64,000 bases of DNA from Sporosarcina trichiuri (GTDB lineage: Bacteria; Bacillota; Bacilli; Bacillales_A; Planococcaceae). The DNA lies in assembly GCF_030406775.1 (NCBI RefSeq), contig NZ_CP129119.1, positions 1,336,001 through 1,400,000 of the forward strand, written 5' to 3'. The notes under the pieces were generated by a model, which was not told the origin of the DNA, did no database searches, and was given only the letters and a program-made list of their open reading frames with translations. The translations under genes were made by a program, and so were the position numbers. This document shows positions 48,495 through 56,713 of the stretch, in pieces. Positions within the stretch are counted from its first letter, which is position 1. Every line of letters starts with the position of its first letter.

Positions 48495-49124
<630 letters not shown>

Positions 49125-49187
49125 CTAAACTATAGTCTTTCTTTTCAAATCAGCCCTGACCGGGAACGATCCGAAGAATGTATTCGT

Positions 49188-49221
49188 ATTATACCATATG
49201 TCAGCCGTCTAGTGCTAAAAT
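49188..49221. promoter_or_regulatory. Back-to-back extended -10 promoters for gmk (minus) and rqcH (plus)
   Basis: Minus strand: TGGTATAAT, a perfect extended -10 with hexamer complementary to 49188-49193, directed at gmk. Plus strand: TGCTAAAAT, an extended -10 with hexamer at 49216-49221, directed at rqcH. Neither has a good -35. The two hexamers are only 22 bases apart, so polymerases bound at each would overlap. Confidence 0.5.
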
Positions 49222-49250
49222 GGAGAAAACGAAAAGAAAGAGGAATGCAC

Positions 49251-50942
49251 ATGGCATTTGACGGGTTGTTCACAACCGCGATGAGACGCGAACTGCAAGC
49301 AATCGAAAACGGCCGGATCACGAAGATCCATCAGCCGAACGCCCAGGAGATCGTGCTGGTCATCCGTGCTGAGGGACAGAACCGGAAACTGCTGTTTTCG
49401 GTCCATCCTTCCTATGCACGTGTCCAGTTCACGGAAGAGACGATCCAGAACCCATCGGAACCGCCGATGTTCTGCATGACGATGCGGAAACACCTGGAAG
49501 GGGGCACGGTGACCGCTGTCCGGCAGACAGGCACGGACCGCATCCTTACATTCAGGATCCGTTCGAAAAACGAAATCGGCGATGATATGGAACGCGAAAT
49601 CATTTTCGAGATCATGGGCCGGCACAGCAACTTTGTGCTGATCGATCCGGAACGCAATATGATCGTCGACAGTCTGAAGCACCTGCCGCCTGCGGTCAAC
49701 AGCTACCGGACCATCATGCCGGGCCAGCCGTATGTACCGGCACCCGCCCAGGACAAACTCGATCCGTTCGAACTGACGGAACAGGAATTCGACACACTGC
49801 TGCCGGAATTCGACTCGCCGAAAGCGGTCGTCGGCCGTCTGTCCGGCTTCTCTCCCGTCCACGCCGAGGAGCTGCTGTACCGGATGCACAATGCGGACAG
49901 CCCGCGGGCATTCGATGTGTACAATGAATTCGTGCGCACTTTCTCGGACGGTCCATTCAGACCGAATGCAGTCGAGAAGGACGGCAAGCTGCTGTTCTCG
50001 GCAGCGGATCTGACCTTCACCGGTCAGCCGCCGACGCTCTATCCGACTCTCGGCGAATTGCTCGACAAAGTGTACTTTGCACGTGCGGTCCGTGAGCGGG
50101 TGAAGGCGCAGGCCGCCGATCTCGAGCGCTGGCTCGACAACGAGATCGCGAAATTGAAACTGAAAGTCCAGAAACTCGAGAAGGAACGCAAGGATGCCGG
50201 GCGGCTCGATACGTTCCAGCTCTACGGCGAACTGCTGACCGCGAACAGCTATGCAATCGGGAAAGGGCAGAAGGAAGCGGAAGTCGACAACTATTATGAA
50301 CAGGGCACGACGGTCACCATCCCGCTCGATCCGCGCAAGACGGTCATCGAGAATGCCCAGCGCTACTTCTCGAAATATGCAAAAGCGAAAAATGCATTGA
50401 TCCAGATTGCCGACCAGCTCGAAAAGGCAGCCGAGGACATCAGCTATTTCGAAATGGTGAAGCAGCAGGTCATGCAGGCATCGACCGATGATATCGACGA
50501 AATCCGGGATGAACTGGCAGATCTCGGGCTGATGAAAGCACGGAAAGGCAAGAAGAAAGCGAAGCCGAAAAAGCCGATGCCGGAGTCCTACGTGTCGACG
50601 TCGGGCACCAAGATCTCCGTCGGCAAGAACAACCGGCAGAACGACTGGCTGACATCGAAGCTGGCCGCCCGCAATCATATCTGGCTGCATACGAAGGACA
50701 TCCCGGGCTCCCATGTCGTCATCCATGACGAACAGCCCGATGACGGGACGATCCAGGAGGCGGCAGCACTTGCTGCCTATTTCAGCAAAGCGCGCGGCTC
50801 CGCTTCCGTGCCGGTCGACTTCACGGAAGTGCGGCATGTGAAAAAGCCGAACGGCTCGAAACCCGGCTTTGTTATCTACTTTGAACAGCAGACGGTCTAT
50901 GTCACACCGGACGAGGACCTCGTCCGCAAACTGAAAGCATGA
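49251..50942 (+). CDS. rqcH: Ribosome quality control factor RqcH (NFACT/YloA family)
   Basis: A 563-residue plus-strand gene starting at ATG 49251 (MAFDGLFTTAMRRELQAIENG), with AAAGAGG upstream; the open frame continues further upstream without a suitable start. The N-terminal NFACT-N domain runs to about residue 270, a coiled coil follows (ERWLDNEIAKLKLKVQKLEK), and the C-terminal NFACT-R domain (HIWLHTKDIPGSHVVIHDEQ) carries the DUF814 motif. RqcH binds obstructed 50S subunits and recruits alanyl-tRNA to add alanine tails that mark nascent chains for degradation. Its own terminator follows. Confidence 0.95.
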   Translation: MAFDGLFTTAMRRELQAIENGRITKIHQPNAQEIVLVIRAEGQNRKLLFSVHPSYARVQFTEETIQNPSEPPMFCMTMRKHLEGGTVTAVRQTGTDRILTFRIRSKNEIGDDMEREIIFEIMGRHSNFVLIDPERNMIVDSLKHLPPAVNSYRTIMPGQPYVPAPAQDKLDPFELTEQEFDTLLPEFDSPKAVVGRLSGFSPVHAEELLYRMHNADSPRAFDVYNEFVRTFSDGPFRPNAVEKDGKLLFSAADLTFTGQPPTLYPTLGELLDKVYFARAVRERVKAQAADLERWLDNEIAKLKLKVQKLEKERKDAGRLDTFQLYGELLTANSYAIGKGQKEAEVDNYYEQGTTVTIPLDPRKTVIENAQRYFSKYAKAKNALIQIADQLEKAAEDISYFEMVKQQVMQASTDDIDEIRDELADLGLMKARKGKKKAKPKKPMPESYVSTSGTKISVGKNNRQNDWLTSKLAARNHIWLHTKDIPGSHVVIHDEQPDDGTIQEAAALAAYFSKARGSASVPVDFTEVRHVKKPNGSKPGFVIYFEQQTVYVTPDEDLVRKLKA

Positions 50943-50950
50943 TCAGCACA

Positions 50951-50980
50951 CCGGCAGGGCAGCAGCCCCGCCGGTTTTTT
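50951..50980 (+). terminator. Terminator of rqcH
   Basis: CCGGCAGGG and CCCCGCCGG pair around CAGCAG, followed by TTTTTT on the plus strand, nine bases after the stop. Confidence 0.9.
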
Positions 50981-51039
50981 CGTATTCCCAGTGGTTATTG
51001 GCGGTCCTTGCAGCAGGGACGCCCCGGGAAACTTGAAAG

Positions 51040-51170
51040 TGATCATAAACGTGGCCGTTCCGCTCATAAATCCGGAAAAGTGATCATAAAACAGGAATTC
51101 CGCTCATAAACATCCGGATTTGCTCATAAACCCCTGAAAGTGATCATAAACAGGCCCGCTGCGCTCATAA
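51040..51170. repeat. Array of seven 10-bp repeats with 20-bp period
   Basis: The decamers TGATCATAAA (51040, 51081, 51141), CGCTCATAAA (51061, 51101, and a 9/10 copy at 51162) and TGCTCATAAA (51121) recur every 20 or 21 bases, separated by 10 or 11 unrelated bases. TGATC copies follow GAAAG; CGCTC copies follow TTC or CTG. The spacing keeps all copies on one face of the helix. It lies between the rqcH and pyrE terminators, in about 380 bases that otherwise hold no credible gene. Confidence 0.9.
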
Positions 51171-51286
51171 CTTCACAATCAGCCTCCGTCCAGCCCCACT
51201 CCCGCGGCCAAACTCTCGATGATCTCCGCTTCCTTCCCCGCAGGATGCTTTTCCAGCCGATCAAGATATCATTCCTTCCTGGAACC

Positions 51287-51319
51287 AAAAAAGAAGCAGG
51301 GGAGGCCATCCCTGCTTCC
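51287..51319 (-). terminator. Terminator of the pyr operon after pyrE
   Basis: GAAGCAGGG pairs with CCCTGCTTC around ATGGCCTC, followed by TTTTTT on the minus strand, three bases after the pyrE stop. Strong stem and long T tract. Confidence 0.9.
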
Positions 51320-51321
51320 TG

Positions 51322-51950
51322 TCAATTGTGCAGTGCCCCTGTCTTCAATCTGCCGTGCCAGTCCTTCAGCGGAGCCAGGGATTCCTGGCGGATGGCGCCT
51401 GTGCGTGCCGCCACTTCGGCCAGCGCATCGAAATCCGTCAGACTTGTATACGTCAGATCCGCTTCCGCGAATGCCTGATCGGCGCTGTCGAGACCATATG
51501 TAAAGATGGAGACGATCCCTTCCACGGGTATACCCTCATCACGGAGTGCTGCCGCTGCCGTCAGACTGCTGCCCCCTGTCGAAATGAGATCTTCCACGAT
51601 GATTGCGCGGTCCTCCGGTTTCACACGGCCCTCGATCTGTTTACTGCGTCCGTGCCCTTTCGCTTTCGACCGGATATAGACCATGGGCAGGCCAAGGATG
51701 TCCGCAACCCAGGCAGCGTGCGGGATTCCTGCTGTCGCTGTTCCCGCGATGACTGTTGTGTTTGGATACTGTTTGCGGATGATCTCCGCAAGCCCTTCCG
51801 CCACCCGGCGCCGTCCGGCCGGGTCGGACATGATCAGCCGGTTGTCGCAGTAGATCGGCGACTCGATGCCGGACGCCCATGTGTACGGCTCGTCGGGACT
51901 GAGTGTCACAGCCTCCGCGTTCAGCAATATTTCTGCAATCTCCTGTTTCA

Positions 51951-51954
<4 letters not shown>
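51322..51954 (-). CDS. pyrE: Orotate phosphoribosyltransferase
   Basis: A 210-residue enzyme adding ribose phosphate to orotate. The PRPP-binding loop AIIVEDLISTGGSSL is at about residues 115-130; IRSKAKGHGRSKQIEG is the flexible catalytic loop. The start is taken at the first of two adjacent ATGs, overlapping the pyrF stop (ATGATGA). Last gene of the pyr operon. Confidence 0.97.
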
Positions 51955-54351
<2,397 letters not shown>

Positions 54352-56558: not shown

Positions 56559-56593
56559 GCTGTCATCCTCCTTTAGTTGAGGAAAGGCCGTAA

Positions 56594-56704
56594 AAAAAGC
56601 CTTCCCGGCAGGCAGGAAGGCTATTTATGTACAGACGGGTCCTGTCAGTCCAGGACACCATTCACATAAACCTTTCCTTGTCTCTCAGTACAATGTTAAA
56701 AGGT
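56594..56704 (-). promoter_or_regulatory. PyrR-dependent transcription attenuator between pyrP and pyrB
   Basis: A binding loop at about 56672-56704: on the minus strand TTGTACTGAGAGACAA with flanking CCTTTT/AAAGG, matching the PyrR-loop form CNGNGAG. A middle hairpin GTCCTG/CAGGAC follows, and then a terminator, AGCCTTCC pairing with GGAAGGCT followed by a seven-T run (about 56596-56625). Binding of PyrR with UMP would favour the terminator. Confidence 0.8.
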
Positions 56705-56713
56705 CACGCGTAT

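Follow-up and report, generated by a model that had tools for sequence, protein, structure and literature searches.

The window (the whole 64-kb stretch of Sporosarcina trichiuri DNA analysed here) contains a phased repeat array of seven units at 51027–51171 on the + strand, flanked by two genes whose 3′ ends point towards it. On one side lies an rqcH-like gene of the NFACT family (48549–50942, + strand; PF05833, PF18297 and PF05670), in which the domain matches start at residue 238 and the true start is downstream of the start of the open reading frame. On the other lies a pyrE-like phosphoribosyltransferase gene (51322–51975, − strand; PF00156); pyrE is present in all 68 Sporosarcina genomes. 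Inspection by eye and by script located a terminator-like hairpin with a T run 3′ of each gene, at 50950–50980 (+ strand) ahead of the array (START side) and at 51287–51318 (− strand) past its end (END side). The terminator-like hairpins of both genes thus point inwards, as had been proposed from the sequence, and the accompanying claim that the array is not the promoter of either neighbour is supported. Upstream in the pyr region, a PyrR binding site (RF00515) was matched at 56590–56707 on the − strand with 41 bits, under the curated cut-off of 54.

The array was delineated by motif positions and a shuffle test. Its first six units carry the core TCATAAA (51043–51049, 51064–51070, 51084–51090, 51104–51110, 51124–51130 and 51144–51150) and the seventh carries TCATAAC (51165–51171), with one mismatch; all face the same way on the + strand, with core-to-core steps of 21, 20, 20, 20, 20 and 21 bp. 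Three phased copies of TCATAAA occur at four places in the window, all of them within this array; 100 shuffled versions of the window gave no such match. The seven phased decamers of the original prediction are therefore real, with the correction that the seventh copy reads CGCTCATAAC. The two classes of unit that it described also exist, but they do not alternate strictly, the order here being A C A C C A C. The array ends in TCATAACTTCACAATC (51165–51180, + strand), a form common to many arrays of the source genome. Outside the array, TCATAAA occurs four times in the 64-kb window, where about four copies are expected; since the core shows no excess there, the cluster seems to be the functional unit.

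The array is one member of an interspersed family, an option that had been raised from the window and is now borne out by at least 57 arrays in the source genome. The three-copy phased TCATAAA pattern gave 201 matches in this genome (3.06 Mb), compared with none for the reversed control pattern. In 40 stretches of the genome we found 57 chains of at least three units, a lower bound, as two more arrays, near 2,734,300 and 2,882,900, lie outside the analysed stretches; some short chains are halves of one array interrupted by an insertion sequence. Seven or eight units are present in 43 of the 57 chains, and the array span is mostly 127–150 bp. The period predicted from the window is kept in these arrays: of 347 steps, in a search that allowed 19 to 22 bp, 281 are 20 bp, 65 are 21 bp and one is 19 bp, with the 21-bp step frequent at the first or last position. 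Two unit types are found genome-wide (A, AAAGTGATCATAAA; C, ATTCCGCTCATAAA), adjacent units being unlike in 199 pairs and alike in 139, and CGCTCATAACTTCACA is a common array ending. The arrays are distributed unevenly, with 15 of 58 listed positions at 2.0–2.25 Mb. By the skew of the analysed stretches, the origin is at about 2.40 Mb and the terminus at about 0.93 Mb, and arrays occupy both replication arms and the regions near both poles; replication-oriented sites are not favoured as an explanation. Paired, similar arrays about 300 bp apart occur in the source genome near 2191600/2191900, 2728000/2728300 and 2145200/2145500, and in strain S-K12 of S. koreensis a 338-bp segment, array plus flank, is duplicated in comparison with the source strain to give the pair at C4:74222/74540.

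None of the 57 chains overlaps a predicted gene by more than 25 bp (genes were called with a simple home-made caller). Among the 55 chains having both neighbours, 30 are flanked by a convergent gene pair, compared with 42 of 186 intergenic gaps from the window and the analysed stretches; as this baseline contains the array-bearing gaps and several chains fall in one gap, the P value of 2e-5 is only a guide. Gene 3′ ends point towards 37 of 56 START sides and 45 of 56 END sides. Gene starts are faced by 19 of the 56 START sides and 11 of the 56 END sides, so not all arrays lie outside regulatory DNA. A home-made scan without a shuffled control placed a terminator-like hairpin with a T run in the gap that separates gene from array in 30 of 37 START and 35 of 44 END cases. 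Judged from these predicted features, most arrays seem to lie outside transcripts. A partner gene was also sought beside the arrays; none was recurrent except an IS110 transposase, among neighbours that mostly lacked a family annotation. By eye, no candidate partner was seen among the array neighbours in Fictibacillus and Bacillus niameyensis.

A TCATAAA array is present at the same site 3′ of pyrE in nine other Sporosarcina genomes, taken as species (G021, G229, G007, G242, G009, G248, G024, G019 and G230, the last with an assembly gap). Arrays are thus shared with close relatives at the rqcH–pyrE site, the one site traced in detail across species. In six species with eight units in register, the cores, measured in chains that had been found by their core, differ at 19 of 840 positions (2%), compared with 327 of 1200 (27%) for the ten variable spacer positions; the source species (seven units), G021 (14 units), G242 (units shifted) and G230 (gap) were left out of this count. 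The same spacers differ by 27% when compared in register and by 54–68% out of register; each unit has therefore remained distinct, and simple copying from unit to unit is not what keeps the cores alike. An inverted repeat of approximate form CGACA(N12)TGTCG is conserved between the array and the pyrE terminator in several species (L225–L231).

At shorter distance, 41 loci could be paired between the source strain and S-K12, most of whose stretches were selected for holding arrays; 34 loci with flank divergence below 3% were used and seven were set aside. At the 34 loci, 3 of 1708 core, 40 of 3214 spacer and 159 of 27275 flank positions differ, with P = 0.03 for core versus flank, a contrast that depends on the three core changes, and P = 6e-5 for spacer versus flank. 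The four most diverged of the loci set aside show 1 of 223 core and 76 of 389 spacer differences, indels not counted. Cores that are kept while spacers diverge indicate that selection maintains the core and, to the extent observed, the step as well, in support of the selection suspected originally. Five of the 34 loci differ in unit number, by one or two units (20 or 40 bp). The array in the window is an outlier, with 11 of the 13 differences within 3651 bp falling in spacers, which suggests that it exchanged sequence with another array or changed rapidly in a local event; a general hypervariability of spacers was dropped as an idea, spacers being about twice as variable as flanks across the 34 loci. 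No empty site was seen among the 41 paired loci, mostly picked for holding arrays, and cores align at all 41. Similarly, among loci picked for holding arrays, at nine places the gene next to a source-genome array also lies within 500 bp of an array in another species, and at four it does not.

TCATAAA arrays were matched in 30 of 261 genomes of the family, 20 within the 68 Sporosarcina and 10 in other genera. At least 21 matches were obtained in 15 of the 20 matching Sporosarcina genomes, and one of the ten matching genomes of other genera is a strong case (G186, with core CGGTCATAAA). None of 24 genomes sampled from other families had TCATAAA arrays; among the matches listed from named genomes, Fictibacillus, Rossellomorea and B. 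niameyensis also carry them. Of 57 uncut Sporosarcina arrays (S-K12 excluded), 44 have 7–13 units, eight have 17–25 and five have 4–6, and 534 of their 552 steps are 20 bp, a count biased by a search pattern of four copies at exactly 20 bp. In B. niameyensis SIT3, a single array (L087:5752–7532) has 90 TCATAAA units that recur every 20 bp exactly, and its spacers are nearly identical. A phage origin was rejected, as the 21 viral contigs with three phased TCATAAA copies are irregular or are tandem repeats of other periods, and plasmids gave no more than three matches, all weak and unrelated. Contigs of Bacteroidetes, Saprospiraceae, Prevotella and Borreliella among the matches listed are tandem repeats with other units.

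Two results go beyond the original prediction: arrays of similar layout with other cores in relatives, and an insertion sequence that is specific for arrays. Arrays at 20–21 bp with AAATACT(G/T)TCC or AAATACTCGCGG cores occur in two other genera of the family, in all seven genomes examined, which had been chosen as matches of the reversed control pattern (G093, G094, G141, G144, G149, G168 and G178; L290–L301). Within the 68 Sporosarcina genomes, ACTACC cores are present in two, GCGGATAA in three and GTTATGCRG in one (a single match, at the pyrE site), and none of these six genomes has a TCATAAA match. The pyrE site was inspected in all 68 (in G255 it is shortened by a contig end). A period scan flagged this site in G250 (ACTACC), G014 (GCGGATAA), G015 (GTTATGCRG) and G005 (CGAGA..), and G003 carries a G005-type array that was recognized by eye under the scan threshold; a flag in G033 was rejected as resembling a coding repeat. 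The scan misses the window's own array, so weak arrays are missed and absence elsewhere is weak evidence. The several core types at the pyrE site may have replaced one another in place, or a convenient gap may have been used repeatedly; among 19 further stretches, no second place common to different core types was convincing besides rqcH–pyrE. In one of the stretches (L382), a single 46% protein match lies 256 bp from an array.

Of 15 arrays in G014, all at 21 bp, 12 have five units, two have four and one has six, while six arrays in G250 have 4–20 units at 19–22 bp. By crude ORF calls, 3 of 19 ACTACC and GCGGATAA chains with both neighbours known lie between convergent genes, so the preference for convergent gaps is not a general one; 8 of 21 such chains are overlapped by a crude ORF of 240 bases or more. 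Longer arrays of AGCGGATAAC units at 21 bp were seen at one place in G254 (C1:2493006–2493623) and at two in G255 (including C39:13973–14316).

The insertion sequence is represented in the source genome by four IS110-family transposase genes (PF01548 and PF02371) at C1:1789515–1790786, 2085760–2087031, 2132052–2133323 and 2810019–2811290 (L201, L203, L205 and L221, respectively). The four copies are identical in protein, and all four lie inside arrays, between TTCCGCT and CATAAA. S-K12 is without the L221 insertion, and its array at C2:412822 is continuous across the insertion point. The 376-bp 3′ non-coding part of the element contains ATTCCG, identical to the left side of the target; after a further 19 bases comes TTATGAGC, the complement of the right side. 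In the target-binding loop of a bridge RNA, a match to the left side followed by a complement to the right side is the expected order. The non-coding part partly matches the array word, in an order that may be that of such a loop. As an element found only in arrays in the source genome, it is a natural system in which to test RNA-guided targeting of a landing site that recurs.

Several features fit clustered DNA sites for a protein: core and step are conserved whereas the spacer is not, the units occur in clusters and all face alike, and most arrays seem to lie outside transcripts. Our preferred reading, to which we give about an even chance, is that the array is a cluster of same-facing putative sites for a sequence-specific DNA-binding protein that acts at the DNA level; the protein-binding array of the original prediction is thereby supported as the leading idea. 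With sites two helical turns apart, the protein would assemble, perhaps cooperatively, along one face of the DNA. It would do so at some 57 clusters, mostly of seven or eight sites, between genes, usually past terminators and often at converging transcripts, and there it would probably mark, bend or insulate the DNA between operons; chromosome organization or a topological barrier between operons is our best guess at its role. Units would come and go 20 or 40 bp at a time, after which spacers would drift while selection keeps core and step. Counting against this reading, no binding protein was found, the arrays with other core types are mostly not at converging genes, some arrays face gene starts, and the number of units varies in other species (4–25, and 90 in B. 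niameyensis). A different core in some relatives would be expected if the specificity of the protein changes, core and protein then changing together.

The main alternative is that the arrays are selfish or neutral repeats of the STAR or REP kind that grow by duplication, settle past terminators and have no host function. We consider this unlikely. It is consistent with the changes of unit number at 5 of 34 loci, the duplication of array plus flank in S-K12, the paired arrays about 300 bp apart, homogenized runs in some arrays (e.g. at 2381837 and in Fictibacillus) and the patchy distribution over 20 of 68 congeners. Neutral repeats should decay, however, whereas the array is kept at one site in ten species and the cores stay intact while flanks and in-register spacers diverge. 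The closest known kind is the STAR element of Staphylococcus. STAR elements are direct repeats scattered between genes, which combine a short conserved motif with spacers particular to each locus; unit number varies within a locus, signs of purifying selection are present and their function was unknown in 2012 (PMC3532100). The arrays are likewise direct repeats outside predicted genes (0 of 57 within them) with a variable unit number. STAR has a 14-bp GC-rich motif, its copies are separated by 40 bp or more and it occupies different places in different species (PMC3532100). The arrays, in contrast, have a 7-bp AT-rich core every 20–21 bp, with 13–14 bp between cores; their place is common to species at the site tested, and congeners have other cores. 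REP and BIME elements resemble the arrays in being extragenic, repeated, near gene ends and targets of insertion sequences, but the REP unit is palindromic (PMC6379681, PMC1525189), whereas the array core is directional with all copies facing one way.

Alternatively, the arrays could be strong gyrase sites, in which a phased alternation of AT and GC over ∼130–150 bp would wrap the DNA around gyrase and absorb supercoils between operons, like BIME-2 elements in E. coli. The gyrase motif of Escherichia coli is 130 bp long with phased GC content, and BIME-2 elements attract gyrase (PMC6379681). The span of most arrays (127–150 bp) is compatible with this, and a 10-bp harmonic makes up 37% of the GC signal of TCATAAA units (P ∼ 0.02 versus shuffled columns) and 33% of that of AAATACT units. 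We consider gyrase sites improbable, and a weaker rival, because one core type is without the 10-bp phasing (4% in ACTACC units); furthermore, a degenerate motif would not be expected to keep a 7-bp word strictly, and in other species many arrays exceed this span or fall short of it.

An element acting as RNA, with the array transcribed as a 3′ tail that binds a regulator or folds, is very improbable. Gene 3′ ends do face most arrays, and the − strand of the window array folds slightly better than its shuffles (z = −1.8, with 10 of 200 shuffles equally good); the + strand does not stand out (z = −0.6), an Rfam search of the window gave no match near the array and terminator-like structures mostly intervene between gene and array. 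The structured RNA listed among the original options was rejected on these grounds. Least credible is a mobile-element remnant or end, or an iteron-like replication or partition site: step and facing are iteron-like and an end sequence is common to many arrays of the source species, but no common flank, inverted end or recurrent neighbour gene was seen except the IS110 transposase, whose copies interrupt arrays instead of carrying them. The array also stays at one place across species, and the viral matches, 21 in all, are irregular or have another period.

We found no description of such arrays in the literature searched, in which subscription journals are mostly missing. Plasmid replication iterons are also same-facing repeats about two turns apart, in five to eight copies; the arrays differ from them in occupying dozens of chromosomal places, with no replication gene found beside them among neighbours that mostly lacked a family annotation. 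DNA uptake sequences are intergenic words that differ between related species and are mostly solitary or paired, whereas the window holds no excess of solitary cores. CRISPR arrays, with repeats of more than 20 bp, spacers of similar length and cas genes, differ from the 7-bp cores and 13-bp spacers seen here.

A phased multi-site DNA feature is held by selection between genes at dozens of places on the chromosome, and in some relatives the layout is kept with other words. The putative DNA-binding system is directly testable with a 150-bp DNA probe, for which species with different cores provide specificity controls, and the arrays may bear on what STAR elements do. More tentatively, and with appreciably less confidence than in the binding sites themselves, we suggest that the arrays could belong to a Bacillales-wide system in which the layout (same-facing sites every 20–21 bp, near-constant in number in some species, in intergenic DNA near gene ends) persists and the word is replaced wholesale from species to species of one genus. 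Such a system, read by a putative architectural protein, would parallel in bacteria the pairing of satellite DNA with a binding protein that evolves fast.
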